This document shows positions 28,497-58,439 of a stretch of DNA of 64,000 nt, piece after piece; the first letter of the stretch is position 1, and every line of letters starts with the position of its first letter. This stretch comes from Membranipora membranacea (Eukaryota > Bryozoa > Gymnolaemata > Cheilostomatida > Membraniporidae). The stretch covers positions 9,610,001 through 9,674,000 of the forward strand of contig OU612067.1 in the NCBI GenBank assembly GCA_914767715.1. Direction: 5' to 3'. The translations under genes were made by a program, and so were the position numbers. The notes below the pieces were generated by a model. The model ran no database searches. It had not been told where the DNA came from and worked only from the letters and a program-made list of their open reading frames with translations.

Positions 28497-30509
28497 TTAA
28501 TCTAAAAATAAAACAAAATGAAATAGGAAAGGAATAGAAATGTTGTTTCTGATGCCAGGTGCCGGCAAATTACATGAAAATATCAATATTCAATGGCCAC
28601 AACAAGACACCGCAACAACCGACTGTGGAAATAAAACAACACGTTTCACAACATTTTGATAACAGCTGTTCCAGACAGATTTTCTGTCTAGTCTCACCAC
28701 AATCCTAGATCTTTCAAAAACATTAACAGTGAAAATTTTTAATGCTTCTGTAAGCTGGATTCTGGATTCAGAATTCTGGATAAGGGATGGGTTATAAAGT
28801 GCGTTTTTTCATGTTAGGTATTTTGTGTTTGAATCGTTTGGTCTAAACTTAAGCAGCTGGGAAAGCAAACATGAATGGCTGTAGAGGTATCCCAAGTGAT
28901 GTAATGAGACAGAAAACTCAAAGATTGTACTTTCAACCTTATCTGATCTGATCTGATCTGATACTTTGTGCACCATATGTATAAACATTGATAGATTACT
29001 GGTTTCTAGGACAAGCACCTACACTATATACTCACGGTACTGGTAAGCTTCCTTAGACTCCTCCGCTCCTGGGTGAGCGACTTCCTGTGGCCAGAAGTTA
29101 CAGTTATCTCCAGTACACCATCCCCAACTTATAGTACGCTCCACATTACCATATCGTGTGTATTTACAGTAGCCTTCGTTATAACCAGCTTTCAATGAGG
29201 AGTTGGTAGGTGCGCATCCAGAGTCACTCTAAACACATCATGTATCAGACATAATTTATTAATTGCCACAGGGAGTAAGGATATAACCAATGTGCCATTG
29301 GAGATATATTTTTTGCTCATGACTATATACCATGGCAAATAAAAACAAAATAAAAATATTGAGAAAAACATATCTTGACTTACCAGCCCATTCAACCAGG
29401 TGTCATTTAGATGTTCTGGGTCTATGAACTGTACGTTAAGACAGTAAGGACGACTGAATCGACATGCCTGTTGGACAGGATGACATGTGGGCTCTTCCTC
29501 AAATGATCTGTTATTTCTCTTTGCGTTGAGAAGACATGTAGTTCGATTATATGTCCAGCATGATTGGTTAAAACTAAAACCTTCTCCATAATTGCGTCTC
29601 ACCATCAAGTCTGCGCGATAAAATTCAAAATATGATAATCTAACTTCTTTGCTGTGCAAGGACAAAGATACTAGCTGGATTCTGATAAATCATTGGATGA
29701 GTGCTAAATGCAATCCTGTCAATGTCAAGAGAAAAAACACTAATGTCAGACACATATTGAAATTGGAAGTTCCAAACTAAACTGCCCATGTGACCTAGAT
29801 AAACAGCTGATATTTTGTATAACTTTATTTAGTTAGCTCAATCGACCACAAGTATTTCTCAGTAATGAAATCAAGTTATTCAATACATTCATAACAAGTT
29901 ATGTTTTCTATTTCTTGCGTGAACCCCTTTTACATCAATTGGATTCAATTGATTACATTAACTTGAAAGTCATAAAAAGTAGATAATAAAAGTCTCATTT
30001 TTTACCTACCATAATAGTCTATGTATTCCGGAGAAACCGTAGGGGTATGGGCATTAGTTATCCCGTAATTACCGCAGGAAGCTAAAAAAGAGTTATCAAG
30101 TGATGTCAAACAACCTAAAGGGTAACTCCTACCTAACCCTGTTAGCTCTGATTGCAACCTGACCAATCAGAGTCATTACATCAGCAACCCGAAAAATCAG
30201 AGCCAACACATAGGCAACCCGACCAATCAGAGCCAACACATCAGCAACCCGACCAATAAGAGTCGATACATTGACTAACTGCTAACCAGTTCTTTATAAT
30301 GATACCACCCAGTAATTTTTAGTAGTAAAATTTATCTCTTGCAATTCGATGATAGTATCATTTTTCGAGCTGTAGAGAGGTTACATGAGGAAACAGCCAT
30401 AAATGTTTATATTCACTATGAGGAATCTTGAATCCCACTTACCAATTGCAAAGAAGACGGCAACTAACAAAATTGCTTCACCAATCTGCCAGTTCATTGA
30501 TTTACTCAT
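28497..30509 (-). CDS. Secreted type II-receptor-like ectodomain protein
   Basis: Predicted secreted 187-residue protein related only to the ligand-binding half of the kinase receptor. Exons: 30509-30443 (signal peptide MSKSMNWQIGEAILLVAVFF), 30081-30010 (linker ASCGNYGITNAHTPTVSPEY), 29610-29384 (exon A, five Cys, sequons NRT and NDT), 29228-29036 (exon B, ends WCTGDNCNFWPQEV), then two bases (28501-28500) completing a His codon and TAA at 28499-28497. Lengths sum to a whole number of codons. It starts at MSKS as in the paralogues; an in-frame ATG at 30521 would add MGYT. Exon A, the next intron and the start of exon B are nearly identical to the kinase gene. It has its own promoter. It could act as a ligand decoy or carrier; that role is inference. 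No membrane segment or kinase follows in its 3' flank. Confidence 0.8.
30155..30274 (-). repeat. Four 30-bp repeats with CCAAT cores, intron 1
   Basis: Four tandem units of exactly 30 bp (CAACCCGACCAATCAGAGCC and ten more bases), three of which keep the GACCAAT core. They lie between the signal-peptide and linker exons. The same block is at 38894-39013 in the duplicate gene. The cores resemble NF-Y (CCAAT) sites, so an enhancer role is possible but unproven. Confidence 0.75.
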
Positions 30510-30909
30510 AGTGTAACCCATCTGCAAAACTAGAAGGATTTGAATATGGTTGGCAGCTTGTTACGAAAGGTTAGGGATAGTATGTCTTGATTCCTACCTC
30601 TCACCACATGATCACACAAGTTCACTGAACGGGGAAGGGGAGATGTTTGACGGAGGGGAAGAAGAGTTTCGGGGCCCAAACTAGACAAGAAACAATTCAG
30701 ATTTGACACTGAGCTGAGAGTGGCTTCAAAAGGCCTGATGATGGCTGTAAAAACATGTGTATGAACAGTGGGTGTTCACCTGCTCTCAAAAAACGTATAC
30801 AGGGGGGTAATCAAATAGAATTTAAACACCCTGTACAGATCAGATGCATAACTTGATTTCAAATCTATTTTAAATGGTATAAACAACAAAACATGGTTAT
30901 CAAACTTAC

Positions 30910-31085
30910 CTCTGTGAAAATCTTTAACTCTCGATGTTAACAGGACAGTATGCCTCCAGATAAAGTTTAAAGATAAAGAAGGCAAGAGGCCTATTATATA
31001 GGCAGCGTCTTGCCTCTGGTAATTCCATTAAAAAGTGAGGCATAGCTGTAGACATATCTCGACTGTCCAATCACAATGTTACCTT
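30910..31085 (-). promoter_or_regulatory. TATA promoter and 5' UTR exon of gene 28497-30509
   Basis: A noncoding exon ends at 30910 on CACAGAG|GTAAGT, about 400 bp upstream of the start codon exon. A TATA box (CTATATAATAG) is at about 30992-31002, and an inverted CCAAT box (GATTGG, forward CCAATC near 31069) is about 70 bp further upstream. The layout matches the other intact paralogues. Confidence 0.65.
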
Positions 31086-32585
31086 TTCGATGATAACATG
31101 TCAATGTGTTATTATCTAAACAGAGTGCCATCAAGTGCAGCAACATGCTGATGTCAGAATGCAGAATCAAAAATCAATTTTCACCAAGTTGTTTGCCAAA
31201 GTTGTCTGGGTAGGTCAGCAGAACTGAAACTGTGCCAGAAAATAACAACAAGGTCATTATAGTGACAGTAGCAAGGGATTTCATTGTTTACAAATGTGAT
31301 GTGATGTGGTGAGAAAGGTGGTATCCAACAGATATTCCGTCGCTCTCCTTATAGATAGCCACGGTTCCATGTCAGCTGCTTGCCTTGCTTCACAGCACAC
31401 ATTGCATCTTTGGCTTTTGAATCGCTTTTTGGGAATTTCATCTTCATGCCAGCGAATTGAGTGCAGGATGAAAAATATTCCGAAGAAAGCAACAAATATG
31501 CAGTTTTCTTTTCTATACATATCTAACAGTGATATTCAATTTCGTAGCTACTAGATGTTTGATTTCCTGCCAATTATTTTGGGGTTGTCTGTGATTCACT
31601 CTTAGACTCTTAGGGTGTAATACTGTTACCTTATGATGATTTGACGTTTTAGTTTATAGATCAAGGAATAAAATGAGACTGAGAAAAATTTTTCTGTTTT
31701 GATGCCATATTTTATTTAGGTCAATCCATGATTTTATAGTAACGGCAAAAGAGTAGCAGTGTTTTCGGTAATCACTTACAATAACCTTGTGCGAGCAGCC
31801 AGACTCTTCCGAAGACGTTGGCTAAATAATAATTATCAATTAAAGATTTATTTTGGGCGATTGTTAGCATGATAATGATCATTTCATTTACTGTCTTCTC
31901 TTTTAGTGTTCTTTGAATGTAAAGGAGTCCATCTGTCGGCACTGTCTAACGTGCATTTAATATTGAGGTATATATTTTATCTCATAAACATGCTTAAATA
32001 TCGTATTTTATACACCAATCAAGCAAATGGAATATTGCTTGATTGATAATATTATCCCTTATATTCAGAAAGAAGGTAAGTCTGCCACAAGGGGTTTGTA
32101 ATCTCTTGAGGGACAGAATTTCAATATGTGATTGATTTCAGTCCTGGTTTTGCAAGCGTGTCAAATCCAACAATCAAATTTGCCAAAATAATAAGTTTCA
32201 ATTGATTCATGTATGTCATAAAAATGTCTTTCCAGCTTGTTACAGCTATTCATTTAGCAAAAAATCAGAACCGCATTTAATGTTTGCGGCTGTCTGGCAA
32301 CACATTGGTGCAAAGTGAGAAGCAAAAATTAACATGATGCGGTAGTACTTTAGATAGATATTGCTGCCACTCAAAAGTCTCTTATAGTGCATGCAGCCTC
32401 TTTTTGTCAGCATAGTCATAACTATGAATATATAACAGCAAATCCTTGGCCAATGATGGAAAACAATAATAGAAAACATTGCACTAGGTGCAGAAATTGC
32501 GTTTTTATTTTTATCACCATATAAACTGGTTAGTCTGTGATAAAAGCATGTTGCAAAGTGCACTGTCAACACTTAGTAAGATTAG

Positions 32586-34230
32586 TGCACCTTTGAGGCT
32601 GATATGTTGTCAAAATATATGTGAGACCGCTCAGACAACGGTATGTGGTTGAGGGATAGAGTAGCACAAACTATTCAACCATCCGACCGACCAACCAACC
32701 AGATAATGTGGTCCAGATTAAGTGGTCGGATTCCTCCAGCAATAAACAACTGGAGGCCAACTGCTGAATTAGCTAAATGAGGCAAAAATCCATCAATAAT
32801 AAATTGAGTTTGTCGCCTGGCAATAACACATGAGAATTGCAATTCGTGCTGCTGCAGACTTCTCAGGGAATTCCAATAAGTAATTCACTGAAAATCATCC
32901 AGGCATACAGGCTACTACAAGTCGGTTGTTTTGATCGGAAACACATTTTCTGGGTGCCGCGATTTCTAGTCCATGCATAAATGCAAAGTCTGGTGCAGGA
33001 AAGCTAACCTTGTGTGCATGTTAGGCCTATAACTAGCTCACACTGATGAGGTAAGAGTGGGACTGTGTCGGGTCTGGTTAGATTTCGTTCTATCCCGACA
33101 AACCGAGCTTGTCTAGAACAACTGAAATTATTTTTTCAAAGCAGAGAAACTGCGTCAAGGGAAGCCCTGATCACTGCAACCACTGAAGTTAGCCCCTATC
33201 TACAATCCTGCTGCTCCATCTGGATCTGCCTATATCACTATACAATGGTAGTATGCACCAAATCATAAGGGTAGTTATTCCTTCCTACAAAAAGAGCTGA
33301 CAACTCCTGACAATAGCAGCTGTGCTTCTCATTATCCTAACCCTATATGTGATTTAGTAATTTTAGCTGAAGGTCACCTTTAACAGCTGGTTGGGCCATG
33401 CTATATCCTCGATGAGCTAGCAACCAACATTTGCATGTCCAGGTTTTTGCCAGAAATTTTTTAGGTCTAAACTTGAGGATGAGGAAAGACTTATCTTTTT
33501 AAAGTACTTTGAAGTGTCACACCAAACTATGGAGGCCCTGTTGAAACACAGAATAAGCACAATTGATCCTTCCTATGGTTCAAGTTAGGTGAAGTTTGGG
33601 CCATGTGGTTGTATTTCAGAAGCATATCAATCACAGAGATATGAATAAAACAAGCTCCAGGCTTACATACATGTGTGAAAGTGTTATCACACTTAAACAT
33701 AACTGTACAAAACATGGCTGTTTACTTAGCTCTTTATCTAACCAGAGATTTTGCAATTAAACTAATTTCATTTTCGATCTCTAGTTATCAAAGGTAGAAC
33801 AAAAAGAACAAGTGAAATTTAGATGTTGACTCAGCTCGATTGGATGCTGATCTAGGCCGATTTGGAGTATAGCTGGATTAGTTGCTGGTTACAGTGTTCA
33901 GAGCTACCCTTGACGCATTCTCCGCTCTAAAAAGTTCTTGCCAAGCCTAGTTTGATGAAATGAAACAAAATCTGACCAAACAAGACCCGGTCCTACTTTT
34001 CCAAATTATTTTGTTTTAGGTATGATGAGCAGACAAGGTAAGCTTTTCTGCACCAGGCTTTGTCCTAACCTTGGCAACTCCTTGGTCTGCACTGAGGTGG
34101 ATCCATTTATCTACAAGCTTTGCCTTACTCTGCTTCTAAGTTTTATGGTTTTTTTTCAACCGTCATCCACCATTCCACATACCGTTGTCTGAGCGGTCAG
34201 ACTTCTTTTTTGTTGATGCTCAAAGGTGCA
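32586..34230. mobile_element. Nonautonomous DNA transposon with long inverted ends
   Basis: Both ends start TGCACCTTTGAG and carry ACCGCTCAGACAACGGTATG about 40-60 bp inside, in opposite orientation (left 32586-32650, right 34170-34230). The 1.6-kb interior has no transposase frame. A related copy without the outer left end lies at 41262-43311, and single ends appear at 35390-35450, 53650-53690, 54480-54540 and 60165-60205. No clear target-site duplication was found. Confidence 0.65.
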
Positions 34231-34600
34231 TTTTTACTATGTGTCATGTCGAATGATAAATAACCCATCTTCATCTTGGCATGATGCACTTGGCAATTTG
34301 CCTTTATTACAGACTAACCAGTTTTTTATGGTGATTACAATAAAAACGCAATTTTTGCACCTAGTGCAATGTTTTCTATTATTGTATTTCATAATGTGCC
34401 AGGGATTTGTGGAAATTCATTCATTCATTCATTGTTATGACTATGCTGACAATAAGAGTACATACACATGCACTATTAGATACTTTTGAGTGGCAGCAGT
34501 ATCTGTATGAAGTACTGACTAATGTTATATTTAATTGGGCTTCTCACTTGGCATCAATTGTTGTGCTAGACCAAAAAATATCACCCCACAAACATTACAA
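34225..34600 (-). repeat. Interspersed repeat R1, inverted copy
   Basis: Same family as 26640-26960 but opposite orientation (TGCACCTAGTGCAATGTTTT then GAGTGGCAGCAGTATC). It includes a short CATT tetramer run at 34418-34434. Confidence 0.65.
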
Positions 34601-34823
34601 GCTGTTCTGATTTACTGTTAGGTAAACTGTAGTAATTTTGAAAGGTCTTTTTCATAACAGGCGTGAACATTTGAAACTTCAATTAGATATCTGGTTTAAT
34701 ACCAAAAAAAAGCAGGGCAAAAATCAACAAAAGTTTTATACAATACTGAGTTTTAATTGTGATTGATTCCTGGCTTCCAGGACGACCTTATGATGACGTC
34801 TATGCACAGGCCCACATACTCAC

Positions 34824-35034
34824 TTCTCCGCAAGTCATACCATAGGCGGTAAGCTTCCCTAGACTGCTGGTCTTCTGGGTGAGCGACTTCTTGTGGCCAG
34901 TAGTTACAGTAGTCACCAGTACACCATCCCCAGCTCATAATTTTCTCAGCATCGCCATATCGTGTGTATTTACAGTAGCCTTCGTTATAACCAGCAGTCA
35001 AATAAGAGGTGTATCGTGCACAACCAGAACTCAC
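34824..35034 (-). pseudogene. Orphan intact exon B
   Basis: A single Cys-rich exon of 211 bp with acceptor CTTTAG and donor AGAA|GTGAGT encodes VSSGCARYTSYLTAGYNEGY and on to [14 protein letters not shown], in the correct phase (0 in, 1 out). All four cysteines are present. The flanks 34741-35150 match 23140-23555 of the pseudogene at 22393-25744, but no exon A, signal exon or last exon lies next to it: upstream sequence switches to the 26.8-kb-type duplication at about 35190. It is therefore a fragment of a gene that was intact when copied. Confidence 0.75.
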
Positions 35035-36732
35035 CTAAAGCCATTATAAACTAGATAATGTAAACCAGCAGACACATAACATTCTTATTATTTTGATCAC
35101 ACTGAATGTATGATCAGTAAAACCCAGGGCTATCAACTATTTTTGTGGGGAAAACTTATCTTTTGCCCGGGAAAAGTGCATAGTATTTAAAATCTTTGGC
35201 ATAGTCAAATCAATGAATATATTTCCACAAATCACTGGCCAATGATGAAATGTAATAATAGAAAACATTGCGCTAGATGTAGAAATTGCGTTTTTATTGT
35301 GATCATCATTTAAACTGGTTGGTCTTCAATACAGTTAAGTTGCCAAGTGTATCATGCCAAGATTTAGATCGGTTATTCATCAGTATAAGGGCACCTTTAA
35401 GGCTAAGACGTCATCAAAAAATTAGTCTGACGGCTCAGACAGTGTTACGTGAAAATTTGAATGCTATAATACCAAATCTTAGAAACATAGTAACGAGCCA
35501 TATAGGTCAATGAATCCACCTCAGCACAGACTGAACAGTGGCGCGGAGAGACCATTGTGAGGAAAAGCCTAGTGCAGACAATCTCTAACCCTGTCTGCTT
35601 ATTATAACTAGAACAAAGTAATTTGGCAAAATTAGGACTGGGTCTTGTTTGGTCAGTTTTTGTTTCATTCCAACAAACAAGGCTCGTCTAGATAAACCAA
35701 AGATTACCAGCTAACCCAGCAATACTCCAAATCGACCTATATCAGCATCCAATCGGGCTGAGTCATATCTAAATGTCAGTAATTCTCTATAGTCCACGTA
35801 CCTTATGGGATTTTCAGTAAATCCTCAAGTTTTAATGAAAACATATCCAACACTGCATTTGGAGTGCTGGTTATGTGTAATAATGCTTAGGCACATGCAT
35901 GTAAGCCTGGAGCTTGTTTTAATCATATCTGTGTTATCAATTAACGAGTAATATACTCAGGGATGATTATTTTAGTTTGCACTAAGCCATGTGGGTAGTT
36001 GTCCCCTCCTACAAAATTAGCTGACAACTCCTGACAATAATTTCTCTGGACCTTCAAACCACCCTCTCTGTTCAAACCCACCCAAATCTAATCCTTTCCC
36101 ACATATTTGCTATAAGATTTTAATTTTGAATGATTTTGGTTTTGTATTTCTGTCCCATTTTGTTCTATGGCTAGCAATTCAAAACAATTGGTCGAAAAAT
36201 CCCGGTTTTTATAGAAAATTCTTGAGTCATTTACATTGTAGTAAATCACAACTAGCAAGTCTCAAAATAAAAATTAACCAAGAGGATGTTCTGTTGTTAA
36301 ATGAGTTGTTAGCCTGATTTTTATCTAGACTTTTGAAATATCAATCTGCCTCCTCAGAGGGTCAAACTTGTTGCTGTGAAACCATAGCTCCTATCTATCC
36401 TATCTTGCAATCAACACAAACCATCCAGACATTAAGGCCAGAATAATACTGGGTTCTTTGGCTGATTGTCTTTATTGCAGATGAGGATAGACTGTTCTTG
36501 TTACATTTTAAGTGTCACATGGCACTTTGGAGGACCTGTCCAAATACTGCCTGAGCCCCTCAATTCTGCCTAAGGCTCATGTTTGGTAAAGTGCATAAAT
36601 AGTAATTCAGGTGTACTTTTAAATCTCTGTCGACTGCACCAGGCCAACGAAGGTAGAAGGACAATTTTAGTCAATGCCTTATTCATAATAAGAAAAAATT
36701 GTTTGCTAACAACTTTTGAGAATATGATGGGT

Positions 36733-36738
36733 TTTATT
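36733..36738 (-). terminator. Candidate poly(A) signal of secreted gene 37175-39249
   Basis: AATAAA on the - strand about 440 bp after the TAA, at the same relative site as in its duplicate. Confidence 0.5.
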
Positions 36739-37174
36739 CATTATAAAATAACTACGAGTTTGACAAACCTATTTTGACTAGCAAAAATTTGAAATAGTTC
36801 AAACAATGAGAATATATTTAAAATTGTTTCTACTGCCACTACAACTACAGGAAGATAAATTTCAACAGATATTACCACTGTGTTCATATCTTGGACATAG
36901 TGGCTTAAAAATGCCAAGGAACCTACAGCTATCGCAGTAACTAAAATTGTAGATCCAAATAGTAGCTGAATATTTTCGAAGGGGTGTCCAATTACCGGAG
37001 TCCCTTAACTTAGTGCGATTGATACAAATGATAAAAAGGTTGTTTGTATAATAAAATAACGGCTTTTCTGGGATCAGAATCACTACCACTGCGGCTGCTT
37101 CTGATGCTGCTTCTGCCACTGAGTGTACTATCCCTCACAATAGAAGGGGATGATGAGTTTGATGCGGTTGAGTC

Positions 37175-39249
37175 TTAATCTAAAAATAAAACAAAATGAA
37201 ATAAAAAAGGAATAGAAATGTTGTTTCTGATGCCAGGTGCCGGCAAATTACATGAAAATATCAATATTCAATGGCCACAACAAGACACCGCAACAACCGA
37301 CTGTGGAAATAAAACATCACGTTTCCCAACATTTTGATAACGGCTGTTCCAGACAGATTTTCTGTCTAGTCTCACCACAATCCTAGATCTTTCAAAAACA
37401 TTTACAGTGAAAATTTTTAATGCTTCTGTAAGCTGGATTCTGGATTCAGAATTCTGGATAAGGGATGGGTTATAAAGTGCGTTTTTTCATCTTAGGTATA
37501 TTGTGTTTGAATCGTTTGGTCTAAACTTAAGCAGCTGGGAAAGCAAACATGAATGGCTGTAGAGGTATCCCAAGTGATGTAATGAGAGAGAAAACTCAAA
37601 GATTGTACTTTCAACCTTAGATCACTGCAGAATTCTGATCTGATACTTTGTGCACCATATGTAAAAACGTTGATAGATTACTGGTTTCTAGGACAAGCAC
37701 CTACACTATATACTCACGGTACTGGTAAGCTTCCTTAGACTCCTCCGCTTCTGGGTGAGCGACTTCCTGTGGCCAGAAGTTACAGTTATCTCCAGTACAC
37801 CATCCCCAACTTATAGTACGCTCCACATTAGCATATCGTGTGTGTTTACAGTTAGCTTTGTTATAACCGGCGTTCAATGAGTAATTAGTAGGGGAGCATC
37901 CAGAGTAAACCTATAGAGGCCAATATTCAACGATGTTTAATGATGTGTACAAGGGAACACAACAGAACTATATTATGTATGCTGCATAGATGGTCTTGGG
38001 AACTTTCTATTAAACAGGTGATCGAGTCCAAAAGAAAAGACGAAACTTAAAAATCTGATAATTAATTGTGTAATTGTAATTGTAATTGTGTAAACTTACC
38101 AGCCCATTCATCCAGGTGTTATTTAGCCCCTCTGGGTTTATGTACTGTACATTTTGACAGTAAGGTCGACTAAATCGACACACCTGTTTAACAGGATGAC
38201 ATGTGGGCTCCTCATCAAACGGTTTGTTATTATTCTTAGCGTTGAGAAGACATGTACTTCGGTTATATGTCCAGCATGATTGGTTAAAACTAAAACCTTC
38301 TCCGTAATTGCGTCTCACCATCAAGTCTGCACGATAAAATTGAAAATATGATATTCTAACTTTTCTGCTGTGCAAGGACAAAGATACTAGCTGGATTCTG
38401 ACAAATCATTGGATGAGTGCTAAATGTAATCATGTCAATGCCAAGAGAAAAAACACTAATGCCAGACACATATTGAAATTGGAAGTTCAAAACTAAACTG
38501 CCCATGTTACCTCGATAAACAGCTGATATTTTGTATAACTTTATTTAGTTAGCTCAATCGACCACAAGTATTTCTCAGTAATGAAATCAAGTTATTCAAT
38601 ACATTCATAACAAGTTATGTTTTCTATTTCTTGCGTGAACCCCTTTTACATCAATTGGATTCAATCGATTACATTAACTTGAAAGTCATAAAAAGTAGAT
38701 AATAATATAGCCCATAGTCTGGCCTCCACAGTTTCATTTTTTACCTACCATAATAGTCTATATATTCTGGAGAAACCGTAGGGGTATGAGCATTAGTTAT
38801 CCCGTAATTACCACAGGAAGCTAAAACAGAGTTATCAAGTGATGTCACACAACCCAAAGGGTAACCACTACCTAACCCTGTTAGCTCTGATTGCAACCTG
38901 ACCAATCAGAGCCATTACATCAGCAACCCGACCAATCAGAGCCAACACATAGGCAACCCGACCAATCAGAGCCAACACATCAGCAACCTGACCAATCAGA
39001 GTCGATACATTGACTAACTGCTAACCAGTTCTTTATAATGATACCACCCAGTAATTTTTAGTAGTAAAATTTATCTTTTGCAATTCGATGATAGTATCAT
39101 TTTTTGAGCTGGAGAGAGGTTCAAAAGGAAAACAGCCATAAATGTTTATATTCACTATGAAGAAAACTTGAATCCAACCTACCAATTGCAAAGAAGATGG
39201 CAACTAACAAAATTGCTTCACCAATCTGCCAGTACATTGATTTACTCAT
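37175..39249 (-). CDS. Secreted type II-receptor-like ectodomain protein, duplicate
   Basis: Predicted secreted 187-residue paralogue. Exons: 39249-39183 (signal peptide MSKSMYWQIGEAILLVAIFF), 38820-38749 (linker, identical in protein to the duplicate), 38326-38100 (exon A, 227 bp), 37910-37718 (exon B, 193 bp), then two bases (37179-37178) and TAA at 37177-37175. Exon A differs from the 29-kb gene in NAKNNNKPFDEEPTC and in NPEGLNNTWMNGL. Exon B has VYSGCSPTNYSLNAGYNKANC and keeps all four cysteines and the WCTGDNCN end. It is more diverged in its Cys-rich exons than in its introns and flanks, a pattern worth testing for positive selection. Its own promoter lies at 39650-39850. Confidence 0.8.
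38894..39013 (-). repeat. Four 30-bp repeats with CCAAT cores, intron 1 (duplicate)
   Basis: Same tandem block as 30155-30274; here all four units keep the GACCAATC core. Confidence 0.75.
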
Positions 39250-43311: not shown

Positions 43312-44836
43312 CACTTCTGGAATCCTTGAGATCGGAAGAATCTTGGTATAGGTCTTCCTTACAGAGGTATGTAATAACGTATTTTTGTTTTAGTTTCACT
43401 GTCAATTATACATCATATATACCTGTTACATGTTGTTGGTATGAAAATTTTTTCTGACCATCAGACTTAGGTTATGCTACCTGGAATACAATTTTTAAGA
43501 GCAGCCGTACACACACTGTTTATACCTACATGTTATCACAGCTGTCTTCAGCCCTTCTGCAGCTCATGGTGGTCAGTCATGTTCAAGAGTCAAAATTTGA
43601 AGTTTCATATTCCGTTTAAACCCTCAACTTCTGGTCCGCTTCCGACCAACCCCCCCCCCACCTTTCCTTTTCAACGAACTTTATGTAATGATGTTATTCG
43701 AGGTAGGAAGCAAAACAAAATTTCTTCACCTTCCAGTAGTCATCCTGCCCATCATAGTCAGCTTTCTAATATTGAGCAATAAACTGCGCAGGGGTATACA
43801 CTATGAGTAAATCAAAGTTCTGCTGGTTTGGTGAAGCAATTTTTTTGGCGGCCATCTTTATTAGTGTTGGTGAGTTTGATTCAAATTTTTTCATCTATTC
43901 TATCTGATATGATGCTAAACAAAAGTCTGCATTTTGTCACTTGAATACTGTGTATTTATAGCCGATATCTGTCAAATCATGAGCATCTAACCACACATGA
44001 ATAGATACAAGTTTTCTGTCATTTAGTTAATTGGTTTAGCTGGTTGCCGTTTTTTATTTTTATCTTTGTCATCTATATGCTGTAAAACTTGTTACTCTAA
44101 CCTAAGGAGGAGCTGACAATTTGTGATAAATCAATGCTATCAGATAATACAGTATGGCAGCTAGTGTGAAAACCAGCATAACAAAACTGTTTGTTCTGTT
44201 TTAGCCTCTTATCTACGCCTGGGCAATTCATGGACTATTATGGTAGGTCAAAAATATTGAAGCACTTATAACCTAGTATTAATTTCCAATAAAATATTTT
44301 CAAATCTCACTTACCTCATGTCCCATTCTGGCAAACCTCTCTAATTATATCTACCAGCCACGTTTCCACCAAACCTTATACCTGGTCAAAGGGCCCGCTG
44401 TTGAACAGGTCAACAGTTTTTGGGGGCTCCAACTAATTACTGTGCCGATACAATCGAGAAAACGTATGTGTGCTATTTAGTATATTGGGATATGAAGTTA
44501 CTATCAATTTATCTGATCTTTGCAGACTCGATTGTTATTGATGAATATGGAGAAGGTTTTAGTTTCAACCGATCATGCTGGACATATAATCGCACTACAT
44601 GTCTCCTCAATGCTAAGAAAACTCACAGACCATATGCTGAAGAGCCATCATGTCATCCTGTCAGACAGGCCTGTTGATTCAGTCGACCTTACTGTCAAAA
44701 TGTACAGTTCATAAACAACCTGGGGCTCGAAAACACCTGGTTGAATGGGCTGGTAAGTAGAATTCTACTTTCTACTCTCCTGCGTATTTTTCAAAAATAT
44801 TCTCTTTAAACCAGTACTGACACAGCTGGGCTTTGC

Positions 44837-45200
44837 CCAGCAGAGCCACCAGTCAAAAATTTAAATAGAAAGTTGTGGCATCAAAACATCTAGCCAGTAG
44901 CTTGGCCCAGCCATCCACAATTAGTGATGACAAATGTTGTTGTTGACCAATCCGGTGGCTATAGAATCTAGCTGAGATCCAACACTAATAAAAATGTTTA
45001 TTAGTGTTGGACCTCAGCTAGATTTCAACGGCACCTGATTGTTCAACAACAACATTCGTCATCGCTAATGGTGGATGGCTGGGGAAGAAGATACTTCCTA
45101 CATTTTGAGTGCTCATATAACTCCATTCAAAGCTACTGGCTAAATGTTTTGATGCCACAACTCTCTATCTAAATTTTTGACCGGTGGCTATGCTGGGCCT
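44837..45200. mobile_element. Foldback (long palindrome) element
   Basis: An imperfect palindrome about 360 bp long, centred near 44995 on AACACTAATAAAAATG/TTTATTAGTGTT. Arms pair CAGCATAGCCACCGGTCAAA-type ends with each other, and the right arm carries about 45 bp of extra sequence near 45085-45130. It lies in the intron of the + strand pseudogene. No coding capacity. Confidence 0.7.
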
Positions 45201-45223
45201 CTAACTCCTTGGCTGGGCAAACC

Positions 45224-45517
45224 GATCATAGCTTGCAAGCTTGAACACGAATAGGTATTGAAAGGGGATTACAAAAAATAGGCATGAATTCAAGCTTTTT
45301 ACCACTGCTGCCACAGCTGGGCTGGTCAAAGCCCAGCTGTGGCAGCATTGGTTAAAAACAAAAAATAGGCATGAATTCAAGCTTTTTACCACTGCTGCCA
45401 CAGCTGGGCTGGGCAAAGCCCAGCTGTGGCAGCAGTGGTTAAAAACTTGAATTCATGCCTATTTTTTGTAATCCCCTTTCAATACCTATTCGTGTTCAAG
45501 CTTGCAAGCTATGATCG
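45224..45517. mobile_element. Second, nested foldback element
   Basis: Outer arms (GATCATAGCTTGCAAGCTTG at the left and its complement ending at 45516) enclose two internal hairpins built on CCACAGCTGGGCT / AGCCCAGCTGTGG. The segment AAAAATAGGCATGAATTCAA occurs twice directly and once inverted. It probably grew by duplication of a hairpin arm. Confidence 0.7.
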
Positions 45518-47270
45518 CAATGTTGTTTATTTTGCCTCGACCTTTTGTTGATATTGGTTTACTCCATATAGTCCTTCAAATTAGTGTCTCGACGCACTCC
45601 TCCTGCACCTTTACCGGGGCCCCTAGGGACTGCTGCTCTTCATACCAGCTAAGCCAACCACATCCATAACAAAACTTACTCTTTTTCCCACAAAAGTAGT
45701 TGACAGCCCCTGCTATTACTGCTCATGCGTTCAATGTGAACAATATTGCATCATTCCTAATGAACGTTATGTATCCGCTGTCTAGTTTATAATGACTTTA
45801 GGTTGGTTCTGGTTGTGCACCACACAACTCTTATTTGGCTGCCGGTTATAACGAAGGCAACTGTAAATACACATGATATGCCGGGCATAGAATGAGTTGG
45901 GGATGGTGTATTGGTGACTACTGTAACTACTGGCCACAAGAAGTCGGTCACCCAGAAGACCATGAGTCTTTATAGCAGCATACCACCAGTGGCATGAATG
46001 TGACCAACGTGAGTATGTGGATCCTTGCATAGAGGTCATCATAAGGTCATCCTGAAAGCCAGGAATCAATCACAACCTGTTCCAATTAAAACTCAATATC
46101 TTTTACCGTTTTGATCCAAATTTCTTGTAGAGATTGTAAAACTTTTACTTTTTCAGTCTCACTAAACTTCTGCAACCATCAATATTTGCCTAACCGGTTT
46201 CTTAAGTTTTGACCATGCATCAAAAAATAAAGAGAAAAAGGTACCCATTTCTCATTTTCAAATAACGAGATTCCTTAAATTTCCACTGTAAACAGTTTTA
46301 GAAGAATTGGGATCGTGGTTAGACTAGGACAGATGATCTGTCTGAAACTGCTGTGTTTATAATGACGTATCATTGTTTTGCTGAAGCAGTGTACATGTTT
46401 GGAATCAGCTTTTTGTGTGAATTTTACTGTTGGAATCAAACTGATCTTAGTTTCTGATAAGAAGTCTTAGATGATGTAATTGAAAAATTGTGTACTTATA
46501 TTATACTTGACAAGTTGGCAAACCCAGAAATCAGGAGGCCCGCGGACGAACTCCACACCCGGAGTTCCACCCTCAGTCCCAGAGTGCGGGTGCAATTCAT
46601 CCCTTGTTTATCGTATTTCAAAGCTAAAACTTGACTGTTCATCTTATGAATTGCATCTTTTTACCAAATTTTGTGAATGATATTGTCTTAATTTGTGCGA
46701 CATAGGGAAGAACAGCCCTAACAACATTGGTAGGTTAGGCTCAGATATTGAAAAGCTGCATACAAACAGTGATGGTGAAGAACGAATACATAGGTATCTG
46801 GACTGTGGAGGTTGCTTTAAAAATGTTCTGAGTGAAGGAAGCTAAAAAAAAAGGAATTAGGGCAGGGTGGGAATCAACCCTAAAAACTGGGAGTCTCCCT
46901 ACCAATAGGGAGACTTGTCAGGTATGACTTGTGTGATGTTTGCAAACCTGAAACAGCTTCCAGACAAAAACAATAATTTATACTTCATCAGACATCTCTA
47001 TGATGATGTCATCAATATTGAACATCATCAGGTTTTCTATTCAAATGTGAACCCAGCTAGATATTTTCTGGCATAGGTCTGCATCAGACAACAGAAGCAA
47101 CAATCCTTTTCCATCAATTTCACTCTTTTTTTTTCGTTTTTAGGGGGCTAAGCCATGACAACATCTAACACAGGCTCACCTACTATAGAGGGTGATGGTG
47201 CAGGCAGCAGCATCATCGGCAGTGGCAGCAGTGATTATTTCTAACTTCAGGAAACCTCAAAAGCACACCA

Positions 47271-48300: not shown

Positions 48301-48477
48301 AATTTAGAGAGTTTTGAGTCTGCAGAGCAACCTATTCTCACGAGTCGTCGGCCGATTGTGTAGGAGGAGAAAACTACACATATGGCTTGGTGCATACTTC
48401 AATTCTGTGTCTACTAACTATTTATTGATGATTAAAGACTCAGTACTTTTCTTGCATACTTGGGTTATGAAGCTAAG

Positions 48478-48700
48478 TAGAAGGTGGCTCAGTTGGTTAG
48501 AGCGTCGCCTTTTAACATGCACATGTTGAAGGTCGTGGTTTCAAATCCCACTGCAGTCCATCGACTACTGGGGTTTGGTTGGCCCCCAGGTGTGCTCCGA
48601 CCTGCCTACAAACAGAGAGCAATTTGGCGCAGATATTGCGGCCTCGCCATGAAGGCACTACAACCGCCGCCCATGCTTCGGGATGTGGTGATAAGACATC
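48478..48700 (+). mobile_element. tRNA-derived SINE
   Basis: Head with A-box-like GGTGGCTCAGTTGGTTAGAG and B-box GGTTTCAAATCCCAC, then the tail CAGGTGTGCTCC, ACAAACAGAGAGCAATTTGG and GGCCTCGCC. Same family as 11640-11875, opposite strand. Without an acceptor stem or sensible anticodon arm it is not a tRNA gene. Confidence 0.75.
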
Positions 48701-49060
48701 TGATTTTAATCAACGTAAGTCTACTTATAAATCCATGTCGTTATTTTCTTGTATCAAAATTGTATATTTTTCCAACTTGTCTTATTTGATAGACACAGAT
48801 GGAAGACCATACTTAAGATAAAAATCATAATCAATAAAAGATTTAAAAAGTCTCATCAAGCTATTGGTTCAGTGTCATCAAATAAAAGCCACTCAAGACG
48901 TATACATATTGAAATCAGCAGTCAGAAACTGTGTTTTTTCTTTATCTGTTTAGTCCCCAAAGTCCCAAAAGGCAAAAAAAAACGATGTTATAGTCAATTC
49001 CTTGCTTATTGTATAAACAAAATGGTTGATATAAAACTCTTGCGGTTGAATTTTCTGAGT

Positions 49061-49066
49061 TTTATT
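49061..49066 (-). terminator. Candidate poly(A) signal of secreted gene 49475-51742
   Basis: AATAAA on the - strand about 410 bp after the stop, in sequence conserved with the 54.9-kb copy (CATAGATAGCT beside it in both). Confidence 0.45.
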
Positions 49067-49474
49067 AATCATAGATAGCTAAAAATTTAACTTACCAATT
49101 ATAAAATTCAAATATCAAATATTGAAAGTAGTTAATAATAATTTATGAGAATGTGCTATGAAAACATCTGTCACTACAACCACAAAAAAAGTACATTAGC
49201 GCTAGCTTTGTCTTTTCGAAATCGATGTAGAAATGCATAAGCCTCTCCAGCTTTAGCAACAAAAAAGCTATTGTAACCTAAAGCAGGTGATACGAATGAT
49301 GTTTATTAGCTGATGGGTTCAAACTAGCTACGGTATGTGTGAGATGTATTTTAGATGTTTCTTAGAGTTAGAAAAGATCGCTGCTTTGTTACTGCTGCTG
49401 CTGCCGCCGCTGCTGCGGCTAACTGTACTGTCACCCTCTATAGAAGGTGAACGTGTGTTTGATGTAGTCATGGC

Positions 49475-51742: not shown

Positions 51743-52217
51743 AGTGAACCTCTGAACAGTCCGCTGCTACTGAAACTAGAAAGTTTGTATATTTTGGGAA
51801 GCATGTATTGAGAGGCAAGGAAAAACTACTGCTTTGTAATACTAGACGATTCAAATATGTTTGGCTGTACTGAAAGTTCAGAGAAACAGTTAATTGTGAC
51901 AGCAGCACACAAGCAACAACCAGAAATGAGTTGTAGAAGGTCCGGTGATAGTTGGTTAGTTTGGACAAGGTATATTATCAATAGCGTAATTAATGTAGAG
52001 CCCGAGCGCTACAAACAGCCCTGATGAAACGTACTCCGATCTTTTTAAAACGTTAACGGTACAAAAATTACTCCGAATCTATCGATATTGGTACATTATT
52101 ACATACTTCCGTAAGAAAAACCAATACCCGGTATAATAAATGTAGAACACCCCAGACTCTTTTTAGATTTGTATGGAAATATATATTCAACTAACTAGAC
52201 ATGTCAGTGATACATAC

Positions 52218-52420
52218 CTCTGTAAAGAATAAAAAACTACACAAAGCTTTTTTAAATCTCGATGATTCCAGAAGTGTCTGCGTCTAGATACAGTTTGGCG
52301 ATAAAGAAGGCACAAAGCTACTTATATATGCAGTAGATCCAGAAACCAAAATTCTATCCCTGGTTCTTCCGTGTTAAAATAAGGCAGAGCTACAGGCAAA
52401 TCTCAACCGGCCAATCACAT
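52218..52420 (-). promoter_or_regulatory. TATA promoter and 5' UTR exon of gene 49475-51742
   Basis: Noncoding exon ends at 52218 (TTTACAGAG|GTATGT). The TATA box (CATATATAAG on the - strand) is at about 52321-52330. An inverted CCAAT box (GATTGGCCGG) lies near 52415. Same layout as the copy at 58925-59130. Confidence 0.7.
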
Positions 52421-54900
52421 GCTACGTTTTCAACAACATCATACGTTATTGTTAGTGGCATAGACAAAACACACAACAGTGTTTTGTCTACGGTTAGTGG
52501 ATTACATGATCATGTCATCAAGTGCAGCAACATTCTGGTGTCAAAATATAGAATCAAAAACTCATTTTCAATCTTTGCCAAAAGTACATCATTTCCAAAC
52601 AGCATTTTAGATGGAACAGGACAACAATATATTGGAACTATGCCAGAAAAAGAAGTCAAGCTCGTAATGGAGTGAGACACTTTATTGTTCACATTCATCC
52701 ATGTGTGGTGAGATAAGTTTCCAAGATCATTTCTGCATAACATATGATGGGAACATGGTTAAGACATAGCAACTATTTACTTATTCAGCTCCTCATACCG
52801 AACATACCAGTAGAGCGCCTACTAGATCAAGTCTAATCCAATTACCCGCATTCCAGTTGCTCCCTACAACTGGTCACGCTGCAGTGTGACAAGTGGACAA
52901 GCAACTCCGATTGCGGGCAAACTTGGTCTTACCAATGCGCAACAGTCAAAACACATCAAATCAAGCCTGTAGTTTTCCTGTCTTATACATCTGGCAGACG
53001 ACTCCCAACAAAGAGTCGACCCATTATCGGCGAAATACGGGTAGGTGTGCCTCAGGAGTGTTTAGTCTCGCTTTTGTTGAGTGTAAGCTCCAGCAATCTA
53101 GTTGATCGCTTGAAAAATATGGAGTTTCATCAATCTCTTGCTTGCCAAAAAAAAACTTTTCAAACTTGCCACAGCAATAAATCAGAGCCACATCTAATAT
53201 TTGTGATTTCTTAACTTGCATACATGGCTCTCTGACACAACCTTGTTATGTCAAGATGCCAAAATAAATATTGTGCGTCAGTACCTCTTACAAAATACTG
53301 CTGCCACTCCAGTCTCCAAAAGTACATACGATCGATCGAAGAGGAATAGTATGTCTTGATACTTACTACTTGATACGATCATTTATTGTTGGCAAAGTCA
53401 TAAAAACAGATGGATATTTCAACTATAGATAGAAATGCAATTATAACAAATGTTGCACTACATGAAGAAATTGTGTTTTTTTATTATGATTATCATATAA
53501 ACTACTTAGTCTGCAATAAAGACAAAACTGCTGCCAAGTTTCAGATTAGGTAATTATCAGTCATCGCAGTAGCCTTGTTCGGTGACCCCCCCCCCCCTTC
53601 CCCACTGAACAAAGCTTGTCAAGACAGGCTATCAACACATGTACATTACCAAAATATAAGTCTGGCCGCTCAGATGGCCATATGTGGGGGAGGGCGAGAA
53701 AAGCACCAACAAGTGGGCAAGATTTTTGTTTGGTGAGTTTTCTTTCCTTCCGATGACCAGAAATTGTATAAAATCCACTGCAGTGATTTCGGAGAGCGGT
53801 GTCCTTTCACACCTTAGAAGAATCGGACACTTATAATGACATATTGTATATTAAGATAATACACATTTATTCTATATTGATACAAATACCAAATTGGAGC
53901 CTCAGCAGCAAATCTAACACGCATCTAATATCAAGGTATATATTATATTTTTTACACTGCATAAATAATGAATATTATACACCAATCAAGCAAATGGACT
54001 ATTGCTTGATTGAAAATATTATCCCTTATCTGCAAAAAGAGGGTAAGTCTGCCACAAGGGGTTTTGTGATTTCAGTCCTGGTTTTGCAAGCGTGTCAAAT
54101 CCAACAGTGAAGTTTGACAAAATGCTAGTTTCTATTGATTCATGGCTGTCATAAAAATGTTGTTCCAGCTTGTTACAGCTATTTATTTAGCAACAAATCA
54201 GAACCGCATTCAATGTCTGCGGCTGTCTAGCACAACATTGGGGCAATATGAGAAGCCAAAATTAACATGATGCGGTAGTACTTTAGATAAGTATTGCTGC
54301 CACTCAAAAGTCTCCAATAGTGCATGCAAACTCTTTTTGTCAGCATAGTCATAATAATGAATATATTTCCACAAATCCTCGGCCAATGATGAAAAACAAT
54401 AATAGAAAACATTGCACTAGGTGCAGATATAAACTGATTAGTCTGTTGCAAACGCACTGTCACCACATAGTCAAGTACAGCTTTGAGGCTGAGACGTCGT
54501 CAAAATATATCTGGGACCACTCAGACAATGGTGTGTGGTTGAGGAATAAAGTAGCACTAACTAGTCTTGGAAACCCACTACAACACAGACCAAGGATTTG
54601 CTCAGACAAGCAGTTTTTCATACCAGAAAATGTGGTCCAGATTAAAACGACAGGAATCCTCGCCAAATTATGGAGGCCATGTTGAAAGCGCAGATTAAGC
54701 ATATTGATTTCTCCTATGACTCAGGTAAGGTGAAATGTGGGGGCTCAAAAAAGTCATGTGGTAGTATTTCAGAAGCACTTTTCAATCTCTGTCAACTCCT
54801 TCCAAATTCCCGAAAAAGCAATATACATGCTATATAGTTGAGTCCTTGCTAATTACAAGTGCAAAACATCTTGGTTGACTATTATGGCGTGGAATTTGCT
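52330..54900. other. Upstream flank, duplicated and repeat-filled
   Basis: No gene recognised. 52440-53600 matches 59160-60200. It holds a perfect hairpin, AGACAAAACAC / GTGTTTTGTCT, at about 52465-52493, copies of repeat R1 (53160-53520 and 54170-54440), a C-rich run near 53586-53598 and one end of the long-TIR transposon family near 53655. Short open frames ending in TMPEK are present in both copies but look like shared noncoding sequence. Confidence 0.5.
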
Positions 54901-54904
54901 GAGC

Positions 54905-54910
54905 TTTATT
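54905..54910 (-). terminator. Candidate poly(A) signal of secreted gene 55307-58439
   Basis: AATAAA on the - strand about 400 bp beyond the stop, matching the position in the 49-kb gene. Confidence 0.45.
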
Positions 54911-55306
54911 TATCATAGATAGCTGCTACAAGTTTGATTTACAAATTATAAGTAGTAAATCTTAAAATAGATTGATGAGAATGTGCTACGAAAACTCCTG
55001 TCACTATAACCACAGGAGGATAAAACAACAATAGCGCTAGCTTTGTCTTTTTCAAATTTTTCTAGAAATGCATAAACTTCTCCAGCTTCTGCGACAAAAA
55101 GTGATTATAACTTGAGCAGGTGATACGAATGATGATTATTAAGTGATGCGTTCAAACTAGCTACATGTGTCTTATATATATTTTAGATATCTCTTTGAGT
55201 TAGAAAGAATCACTGTCTTGTTATTGCTGCCGCTGCTGCAGCAGCTGGCGCTGCATGTTTCATCACCATCTATAGGAGGGGAGGAAGTGTTTGATGTAGT
55301 CATGAC

Positions 55307-58300
55307 TTAACCTTCTAAAAGTAAATCAGAGTTAAATTGAGAAAAAATGAAAGGTTTCTTCTGTTGTCAAATGCAGTCTAATTACCAAATTATATCGATC
55401 ACGGATCATGTTTTGAACATAATGATTTTCTATTTTGATGATGATGATGCAGTCCTGAATCTTCCAAGAACGTAGAGTGAAGATTCTGAAACTTCTTCTT
55501 GGACTCAAAATCTCGATCAGAGAACAAGGTGCCTCTTTTTCTCTTTTGAGTTGAATACCTTTTGGGTTGTGCGGACAAAACTTAAGCAGCTGGTAAAGCA
55601 AACAACTTACTATCTTGGAAACTTTGAATCACTACTGAGTTCTGACCCACAAACCTGAATGTTTTGAGTACCATTTTTGAGGAGCTTTAATTGATTCCTG
55701 GTTTTCAGGATGAACTTATGCACGGCTCCACATACTCACGTTGGTCATATTCATAGAACCGGTGATAAGCTGCTAAAGACTTTGGGTCTTCTGGGTTAGC
55801 AACTTCTTGCGGCCAGTAGTTACAGTAGTCACCAGAACACCATCCCCAACTCATCCCATAATTGGCATCCCGTGTGTATTTACAGTTGCCTTCGTTATAA
55901 CCAGCAGTCAAATAAGAGCTGTGCGCAGCACAGTCAGAGTTAACCTAAATACAATGGTTATTGGACTATTATCGGCTAGGGGTATACAAATATTATCATA
56001 TCTTTGGTGATGGAATTTCTGTTCTAAAAACTATGTATAGTGTTAGAAATTTTTTCTCCCTTCTCATATATGAGTTATGAGGTATCTATGAGCCTAGTGC
56101 TGTGCCAACCTAATAAGCTACCACTTCAAAATACTTTAAAATTTGAATTACTATTCTTTTCCATATAAGTTCAAAATAAATATAGTTCCATTGTTGGGAG
56201 ACAGTTCACAATAGTAGATAACTTCATTTATCAATTTATACAGTTGTCTCAAGTAGATAGAAGTGATAGCTTATTACCCTGTAGGAGTTTAATTTAGCTA
56301 GACTTTAATTTCGCTATCTGGACCTGGTACTAAATTTCACTAGTACTAAATTTCGCTAGTACTAAATTTCGCTAGTAGGCTTACTAGTGAAAATTAAAAA
56401 AAAAAGTGTACAAACTGGGATTTGAACCCAGGGCATAAATCTCCATAAGGTGTGCATAAGGTGTCCATAAGGCATGCATTTGTAAGGTGTATTCCTGTAT
56501 AATTGTACATATGAAACTATGGTGAGTGAGTTTAATTTAAGATACACTAAACTTCGCAACCGAGGCAACAACGCGAAAAGCGAATCTTAAATGCCGCGAA
56601 AACTAAACTCCTATAGGGTAGGTTGACACAGCACTAGGCCTTATAGATACCTCATAACTCATATATGAGAAGGGAGGAAAATTGCTAAGACTATACATGA
56701 TTTTCACCCGGAAGTGCTCTGAATTTTCTAATTGTCAAAATATTGGATAATTACTTCAGAACTAGCTGCCAGACAATATATTGCTGTGTTCCTTCCAAGT
56801 CTTTAACACTATAAATGTTAAACTACTGCTGCCACTCATGCAAATTTGTGCTCATTGAATATGCATAGCTCCAAGATAATTAATTGAGACTTAAATTTCA
56901 TAATTGTCACCTAATAGACAAATAATTTGCACAAACTGATCTTCAAAATCAGGGCATGAAATCTAAGCACCAGCTAGTAAGACGGTAACTACCTCACCTA
57001 ATGCAGTCGATAATTAATTTCATACCCTAATTTTGACGATCAGTTTGTGCAAATTATTTGCTCATTATGTTAGGTGATAATGCTAAGATTGCAGCCTGAT
57101 TTTATTAGTTTTGAGCTACACAGAATTCTATAAAGCACACATTTGGCTGTGTGGCAGCAGTGTTTTAAGGTATCAAGGTAGCACTTCTATGTTTTATGAA
57201 GCCATTTGGACTCACAGAAGATCAAATCGGGCATTGGCAGCTATGAGTAATTGATGATAAAATGCCAACCTATATTCACTTACCAGCCCATTCAACCAGG
57301 TGTCATTTAGCCCTTCCGGGTTTATGAACTGTACATTCATACAGTAAGGTCTACTGAATTTGCATGCCTTTCTCACAGGATGACATGTGGGCTCCTCATC
57401 AAATGGTCTGTTATTTTTCCTCACGCTGAGAAGACATGTAGTACGATTATATGTCCAGCAGGATCTGCTAAAACTAAAACCTTCTCCGTAATCACGTATC
57501 ACTAGCCAGTCTTAAAAAAAAGAAGATTTATGGATGACTCATTAACAAATTTAAAACATTGAGCTGTGTGAGGGCATGGATTTCTCTATTTTTTGCATAC
57601 AGCTTACCATTTCTTTTTCTGTGGTCTACATAATGTCATTAATAATCGATAGTTACATAAATTTAATATAAATCGTAAATCTGCCACCAGTTTATGTTTT
57701 ACCTACCATAATAGTCGAATCGTGATCGACTTACTGGAGAATTTGACAGTGAATCCAACAAAGACGTACTGGAAGCTGAAACAGAGTTAGAAGAAGTGTA
57801 GTGATAAAAACCTAAAAGGGTAACTAGGAAACTACAATGTAACAAAAATAATGACCGCTAACCAGCTTTAACGTTTGACATGCTACCATCTGGTCGGTTT
57901 CGTGCTGTAAAAGCAGGTATAAATCTGAGGCGTAACTGTTTCCGTGCCATTGCAATTAATACATTGAGCAAATAAATCTTAGTCTATGCTTTTTCCACTT
58001 TTATTTTTTTTATTTATACCTGCATTTTATGAGCTCAATTCACAGTTTTATCAGCAGTCCAGCAATTTTATTTATCAGTAGTGATATAATAAAGGTACAT
58101 ACATACATTTAACTGTCCCAGAAATTTTCCTTTGTGAGTTTGAAAAGAATTATGATCTTTAAGAGGGAGAGAATTTATACAATGTAGCAAAAGGTTTTTT
58201 TTCTAACTATACTGTCCCAAAAAATGTTTTTTTGGCAGTTCGAAGAACTGTTGATTCTTGAGAGTATATACGAGGACAGTGGGCATAGATATACAGTATT

Positions 58301-58439
58301 TAAATGACAATATCCAGAGGATTCTCTGGCATCATTTCTGACAGCAGATCTAGTAAAATAATCCAAACTCACCGAGAGCAAAGAAGACAGCAACCAAGAC
58401 AGCTGCTTCACCAAACCAACAGAACATTGATTTACTCAT
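55307..58439 (-). CDS. Secreted type II-receptor-like ectodomain protein
   Basis: Predicted secreted protein of 191 residues. Exons: 58439-58373 (signal peptide MSKSMFCWFGEAAVLVAVFF), 57775-57707 (69-bp linker ASSTSLLDSLSNSPV), 57510-57284 (exon A, 227 bp, beginning DWLVIRDYGEGFSFSRSCW), 55944-55740 (exon B, 205 bp, ending [14 protein letters not shown]), then 55314-55307 with Gln, Gly and TAA (55309-55307). Phases 1, 1, 0, 1 match the other members. Sequons NRT and NDT are present in exon A. The intron between exons 1 and 2 has a LINE 3' end inserted (57866-58112). The intron between A and B holds two inverted-repeat elements (56045-56685 and 56908-57075). Its promoter is at 58925-59130. It is most like the 49-kb gene. 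Confidence 0.8.
56045..56685. mobile_element. Inverted-repeat structure with nested MITE
   Basis: Outer arms 56045-56110 and 56620-56685 are inverted copies of a segment also present once at 50285-50345 (TTCTCATATATGAGTTATGA then CCTAGTGCTGTGCCAACCTA). Inside, 56277-56620 starts CCCTGTAGGAGTTTA and ends TAAACTCCTATAGGG, a terminal inverted repeat. A tRNA T-arm-like CTGGGTTCAAATCCCAG (- strand, near 56420) and a tandem CTAAATTTCGCTAGTA repeat lie within it. Confidence 0.55.
56908..57075. mobile_element. Small palindromic element
   Basis: Arms of about 55 bp pair around ATAATTTGCACAAACTGATC / GATCAGTTTGTGCAAATTAT with a spacer of about 55 bp. It lies in the A-B intron of the 58-kb gene and has no coding capacity. 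Confidence 0.65.
57866..58112 (+). mobile_element. LINE 3' end inserted in intron
   Basis: The frame ending TAA at 57975 encodes LPSGRFRAVKAG, then LRRNCFRAIAINTLSK, the extreme C terminus of the same LINE group as 19860-20515. The 3' UTR ends in an ACAT repeat near 58092-58110. It is strongly 5'-truncated, which is typical of target-primed insertion. Confidence 0.7.

Follow-up and report, generated by a model that had tools for sequence, protein, structure and literature searches.

Alternative and multiplied ligand-binding domains are known from several receptors of the TGF-beta family. The Drosophila gene baboon combines one kinase with the alternative ligand-binding exons 4A, 4B and 4C, the fourth exon alone differing between the forms (PMC12124520), and extracellular splice forms are reported for fly tkv and sax, too (PMC10847725). 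In vertebrate TGFBR2 and BMPR2, the type II ligand-binding domain is encoded over two exons and has been multiplied as an exon pair, with 12 vertebrate events of multiplied ligand-binding domains and with single-domain splice forms that are marginal in chicken and horse, while duplications in sponges and oysters are cited in the discussion of the same paper (PMC13187141). A soluble splice form of the human TGF-beta type II receptor, TbetaRII-SE, has likewise been described (PMC8461249). Vertebrate genomes contain more ligands of this family than receptors (PMC13187141), and how the ligands are discriminated is of general interest. Ligand-binding cassettes multiplied beside one kinase, whether as secreted traps or as exchangeable heads, would offer a natural experiment on this question.

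Comparison of the locus analysed here with these systems revealed features of each. Like baboon, it holds one TGF-beta-family receptor kinase together with several ligand-binding-domain exons that may be used alternatively; baboon as described, however, is a type I receptor with one exon per domain and three alternatives (PMC12124520), whereas here a type II-like kinase is preceded by four-exon units that include a signal exon and whose splicing is predicted. As in TGFBR2 and BMPR2, the ligand-binding domain is split over two exons and duplicated as a pair, but those genes are described with two or three domains in one gene and as exon pairs (PMC13187141), while here seven extra copies were found, of which the four intact ones each possess a signal exon and a linker. 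The putative soluble products would resemble TbetaRII-SE as type II ectodomains that bind ligand, although TbetaRII-SE is a splice variant of the receptor gene and not the product of a gene array (PMC8461249).

In the literature searched (titles and abstract openings of the best matches, with few subscription journals), we found neither an array of secreted type II ectodomains nor one of alternative type II cassettes, and nothing there matched the arrangement seen here, in which a single kinase gene is preceded by four intact units and three broken ones. The pseudoreceptor BAMBI is receptor-like and kinase-less, as are the units described here, but it is a membrane protein, and the 1.0-2.5 kb scanned behind each unit revealed no convincing transmembrane exon. 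Clustered protocadherin and UGT1A loci carry an array of alternative 5' variable units before shared 3' exons, the variable part being one first exon without internal acceptors. Each unit here has three acceptors, and skipping of units is therefore harder to explain than in those loci.

A type II receptor kinase gene and four intact units

The window, by which we mean the whole stretch of 64,000 nucleotides that was analysed, contains on its minus strand an intact type II receptor kinase gene, K (8272..16661), modelled with 11 exons and 630 aa, with GT-AG at all introns, agreeing phases and no internal stops. Its signal exon (16661-16595), linker (16200-16075), exon A (15730-15504) and exon B (15348-15159) are followed by the transmembrane (TM) exon (14109-13756; hydropathy maximum 2.82), whose phase-1 acceptor is a possible common joining point, and by six kinase exons (13182-12949, 12711-12559, 11169-11084, 9243-9102, 8882-8761 and 8463-8272), the transmembrane segment thus sitting between exon B and the kinase exons. 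The kinase matched ActRIIB (2qlu) with an E-value of 7e-50 and the Pfam kinase profile with 1.1e-28, and among the best 60 of 1604 PDB matches ActRIIB, ActRIIA, TGFBR2 and BMPR2 preceded any type I receptor; inspection of the 630-aa model by eye revealed no GS (SGSGSG) box before the kinase. Receptor and gene structure together indicate that the DNA comes from an animal. In the alignment with ActRIIB, likewise judged by eye, HRD, APE and a VAIK-type lysine are apparently present, and the exon at 11169-11084 reads DFN in place of DFG. We discarded an alternative phase-0 donor of exon B at 15163: with it, the TM exon would meet a stop after four codons (by eye), and its score is lower (4.1 vs 6.8). 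Downstream of K lies a direct repeat of about 450 nt (4751-5173 and 5341-5790, 88% identical).

Upstream of K, exon models with GT donors on all four exons and AG acceptors on linker, A and B bore out the four minus-strand units with preserved frame and phase that an earlier note on this DNA had proposed. E1 extends to its donor over 30509-29036 (signal 30509-30443, linker 30081-30010, A 29610-29384, B 29228-29036), E2 over 39249-37718 (signal 39249-39183, linker 38820-38749, A 38326-38100, B 37910-37718), E3 over 51742-49958 (signal 51742-51676, linker 51417-51325, A 50884-50658, B 50168-49958) and E4 over 58439-55740 (signal 58439-58373, linker 57775-57707, A 57510-57284, B 55944-55740), the ATG of E4 falling exactly on 58439, the upper end of the region that the earlier note had singled out. 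The signal exon has 67 nt, the linker 69-93 nt and exon B, measured as far as its donor, 193-211 nt, while exon A has, as previously claimed, 227 nt in all four units, and the same length in K. An ATG and a hydrophobic core are present in 4/4 signal exons (judged by eye, no predictor). Between signal exon and donor, cysteines and sequons are kept as had been stated, with 10, 10, 10 and 9 cysteines (10 also in K) and 5, 4, 2 and 2 sequons in E1 to E4, respectively. The reported lengths of 187, 187, about 200 and 191 codons need correction: read to the first stop, which ends at 29019, 37701, 49923 and 55705, the four units encode 191, 191, 210 and 200 aa. A 30-bp minisatellite (3.6 copies) occupies intron 1 of both E1 (30154-30262) and E2 (38893-39001).

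The proposed similarity to activin receptor ectodomains, in turn, was not recovered by any sequence comparison. PF01064 (Activin_recp, three-finger) matched none of the five proteins (K and E1-E4), and there was no Pfam match to the ectodomain; a profile built from the five ectodomain sequences had no hit in the PDB with an E-value of 10 or less. Protein searches, which reach only proteins sharing exact five-residue words within set lengths, returned nothing significant among 51 candidates for K residues 60-225 and among 730 for the four-unit alignment. Of 4094 candidates in the search with K, 34 proteins matched, most of them kinases of the plant type, and the sole match also bearing a receptor ectodomain domain, P0002 of the sea slug Elysia, gave no aligned stretch with the ectodomain described here. 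Exons A and B folded separately reached a mean pLDDT of 50.0 and 49.7, too poor for a fold search. Receptors of this family carry near the membrane a cysteine box of the form CC-x4-5-CN, and all five proteins resemble it in part, with C-x4-CN (WGWCxGDxCN) in 5/5 and the double CC in 0/5; the box of Babo reads CCKSDFCN (PMC12124520). As nothing matched in Pfam, PDB or the protein searches, linkage and gene structure are the grounds for regarding the ectodomain as activin-type: in K it occupies the ectodomain position, and in 5/5 proteins the ligand-binding domain is split over two exons (A and B), as in vertebrate type II receptors (PMC13187141).

The splice donor after exon B and what it permits

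The units had been described as stopping right after exon B, whereas their frames actually read through a consensus donor, GTGAGTAT, at the position of K's exon B/TM intron. This donor directly follows exon B invariantly in 7/7 non-kinase copies and stands in phase 1 in 4/4 intact units, whose stops end 17 or 35 nt beyond it; it lies 4 nt past the last shared codon in K and 7 or 25 nt past it in the intact units. Invariant columns make up 13% of the 30 columns before the donor (stalk) and 32% of the 82 after it (tail), and the longest uninterrupted stretches of them measure 2 and 4 columns, compared with 8/8 at the donor itself. A run of 8 invariant columns arose in 0.5% of column shuffles (P 0.005), which counts as moderate evidence, since the shuffle ignores relatedness and E1/E2 as well as O/PS (the latter a lone exon B and a broken unit, see below) are recent duplicates. 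In the single comparison of E1/E2 with the remaining copies, stalk identity was 0.65 and tail identity 0.57, which by simple powers gives about 0.01-0.03 for eight matches at the donor, a weaker result than that of the shuffle. The chance of a GTGAGT within 36 nt is about 0.013 here. On a weight matrix, exon B donors score 5.8-8.0, inside the span of the other modelled donors (5.1-10.6).

Beyond the donor, identity among E3, E4, O, PS and the inverted copy INV falls gradually (0.86, 0.77, 0.46) with no sharp drop at the stop, and the tails of E1/E2 are set apart from the other copies by indels. In the 60 nt after the donor, E3/E4 are 96.7% identical vs 83% over exon B, and E1/E2 also 96.7% vs 91%, while one TGA is common to E3, E4, PS and INV. 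The tail peptides read EYIV in E1/E2, EYV[D/E]PCISSS in E3/E4 and EYVGLCIDVIIRSSWKPGINHN in O. From the conserved donor, the K intron at the same place and the improbability of a chance GTGAGT, our conclusion is that exon B was originally internal and that the tail originally belonged to an intron.

The donors of the units, the acceptor of the TM exon and every linker acceptor have phase 1 in common, and linker, A and B together form a symmetric 1-1 module. All 11 joinings tried were open (K itself, four single units and six chains): E1, E2, E3 and E4 joined to the TM-kinase exons of K give 613, 613, 626 and 616 aa, none of the four being interrupted by a stop, and multi-unit chains were open in 6/6 cases, up to five units and 1302 aa. 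Judged by its reading frames, the locus thus permits direct joining to the TM exon, serial joining and read-through alike.

Two possible readings: receptor heads or secreted proteins

These results led us to favour, tentatively and at slightly less than an even chance, the reading that the units serve a membrane receptor as ligand-binding cassettes, used as alternatives or stacked, soluble products of read-through being a possible addition. A transcript starting at a cassette would be spliced at the exon B donor. From there it could go straight to the TM-kinase exons 15-42 kb downstream, so that one kinase would be fitted with alternative ectodomains, or it could pass through further linker-A-B modules and encode a receptor with more than one ligand-binding domain. 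Transcripts left unspliced at the donor would terminate in the intron and yield soluble proteins. The invariant phase-1 donor at the position of K's exon B/TM intron, the 11/11 open joinings, the 10 cysteines before the donor in K and in three of the four units, and the failure to see an own TM exon with a convincing phase-1 acceptor within 1.0-2.5 kb downstream of each unit are in line with such cassettes. So are the ordinary donor scores, the gradual loss of identity beyond the donor, the indels that set the E1/E2 tails apart, and the precedents of baboon (PMC12124520) and of the multiplied exon pairs (PMC13187141). Hydrophobic candidates for a TM exon at 28326-28065 and 37004-36743 were dismissed for their weak acceptors (61% pyrimidine) within a duplicated stretch, and those behind E3 and E4 for having no acceptor. 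Against cassettes speak the long skip from the donors of E1-E4 to the TM exon, past the linker, A and B acceptors of the intervening units, for which a mechanism is not evident, as well as the higher identity after the donor than in exon B, the shared TGA and the odd number of cysteines in E4 unless the tail is counted. Conservation of the donor is in addition weak evidence of its current use, because the broken copies PS and INV keep it too, and the separate signal exons argue for separate starts as opposed to multi-domain chains.

Carried further, the cassette reading would make this one locus a repertoire of type II receptors, in which one kinase could receive, singly or serially, any of its five cassettes (once about eight), every one of them with a start and a signal exon, while recombination shuffles sequence among the cassettes and into the receptor. 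We regard this extension as rather unlikely; if true, it would give TGF-beta signalling a counterpart of the clustered protocadherins.

The main competitor, which we consider less likely yet a strong rival, follows the earlier note and treats each unit as a gene of its own with exon B as its last exon, the four products being soluble ligand traps or carriers. It accounts for the retained signal exons, dN/dS values below 1 (see below), the missing TM exons, the TGA common to four copies and tails more alike than the exon before them; the even cysteine number that E4 reaches only with its tail (10 instead of 9) fits as well, and the human splice form provides a precedent (PMC8461249). The same tail, however, opens with an intact consensus donor in 7/7 copies, its peptides differ among E1/E2, E3/E4 and O, and in E3 it raises the cysteines from 10 to 11. 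Poly(A) hexamers are uninformative either way: the 2-kb stretches behind the stops of E1-E4 contain 6, 6, 6 and 4 of them, respectively (2-3 per kb), and the minus strand as a whole has 1.86 per kb. What stands of the earlier proposal is a tandem family of receptor-type ectodomains beside a type II kinase gene; its division into separate, secreted-only genes is less secure, as a phase-1 donor precedes every stop. It is the tail identity, the common TGA, the cysteines of E4, the donor in broken copies and the long skip that keep our preference for receptor cassettes below an even chance and leave secretion a tangible share. The two readings predict different splice junctions.

Selection, exchange and broken copies

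Three broken or partial copies, a truncated exon A within K and part of a second kinase gene were absent from the earlier note. PS (23214..25497, minus strand) comprises a linker-like piece (25497-25417), exon A (23920-23693) with one extra base and exon B (23429-23214) with a frameshifting insertion and the donor kept; a signal exon of PS was not found. O (34824..35034, minus strand) is a lone exon B, open and with the conserved donor, and INV (43803..46008, plus strand) is an inverted unit whose exon A (44526-44752) contains a stop and whose exon B (45802-46008) contains a stop and a frameshift; its signal exon (43803-43869) was found, and its donor is kept. Between exons A and B of INV, at 45271-45446, lie two copies of an 87-bp unit whose consensus has a self-complementary stretch (by eye). 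The second kinase gene, K2, is represented by its last three exons (1355-1499, 1816-1937 and 2205-2396, plus strand), tail to tail with K and with intact splice sites; they are 90-95% identical to K exons 9-11 while the introns can hardly be aligned, and further K2 exons were not found within the 64-kb window.

Protein identity of exon A to E1 is 76-94% in full-length copies (77% and 64% for the two PS pieces), that of exon B to E3 66-78% with pieces of broken copies counted, and signal exons are 41 to 91% identical among copies. Over signal, A and B, dN/dS was 0.33-0.52, with a bootstrap interval below 1 in 8/8 pairs computed (of 10 possible, K-E3 and K-E4 being left out, and the pairs not independent), although two upper bounds come near 1 (0.88 and 0.91). 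The dN/dS comparison suggested in the earlier note therefore favours function, and similarity among the units exceeds chance. Linkers were excluded from all totals; a value of 3.1 for the E3-E4 linkers was set aside as the product of aligning unequal, gapped linkers, those of E1-E2 giving 0. K vs K2 gave 0.09 (bootstrap 0.03-0.18) over 149 codons, several times lower than the ectodomain values, albeit from different gene pairs, and the kinase exons are held much more strictly than the ectodomain exons.

Abrupt changes of identity along the units reveal a mosaic and therefore exchange between copies. The stretches adjoining PS and O share 97.8% identity over 1874 nt and E1-E2 pieces 81-92%, so that the E1+PS and E2+O blocks are, as far as their sequence tells, a segmental duplication; when E1 is compared with E2, identity is 94-96% in introns 1 and 2 and 88% in exon A, and intron 3 is hardly alignable (46%). 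K matches E1 (29769-29043) with 95.0% identity over 727 nt, including a tract at 15290..15889 (part of intron 2, exon A, intron 3 and the 5' part of exon B) with 15 differences in 600 nt, followed from about 15290 by a cluster of differences; the 5' part of K's exon B is closest to E1 and most of the remainder to O and PS. At the left junction, a leftover exon A fragment in K (15886..15966, 81 nt, 85% identical to exon A) is joined to E1-type intron sequence, for which reason much of K's present ectodomain appears to have been supplied by an E1-like copy. The cassettes are intact at the protein level and arose by segmental duplication with sequence exchange, K included.

With 3/7 extra copies broken or partial, an E1-like tract and a leftover exon A in K, and ectodomain dN/dS several times that of the kinase exons (in different gene pairs), the array might also be a decaying or idle cluster, that is, little-expressed by-products of unequal exchange that feed the receptor by conversion or insertion; we consider this improbable, as every exon, frame and donor is kept in four units and 8/8 dN/dS intervals exclude 1, two of them reaching 0.88 and 0.91. 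That the E1-PS and E2-O blocks are in part two haplotypes placed in tandem by the assembly is very improbable, for although the blocks are parallel and 97.8% identical where they flank PS and O, the divergence of E1 from E2 amounts to 12% in exon A and 9% upstream, PS has an exon A and O none, and E3, E4, INV and K would still be distinct copies.

Rfam gave no matches; several further elements were observed in the window. An element of about 80-115 nt recurs on the minus strand upstream of K, PS, E1, O and E2 (21130-21030, 27370-27291, 33345-33230, 36048-35969 and 42435-42337), with one copy on the opposite strand (48311-48408); it is possibly a shared 5' exon or promoter piece, or else a mobile repeat. 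A dispersed repeat with the look of a tRNA-derived SINE (by eye) occurs at 11662-11874 and 48476-48689 on opposite strands with 76% identity, and a 208-codon open frame at 19755-20381 (plus strand) resembles a piece of LINE reverse transcriptase (by eye). The open frame at 62471-62767 (minus strand), with a weak match to PF16741, the mRNA-decapping enzyme C-terminus (E 0.0036; 17 bits vs a cut-off of 27), perhaps belongs to a neighbouring gene upstream of the array.
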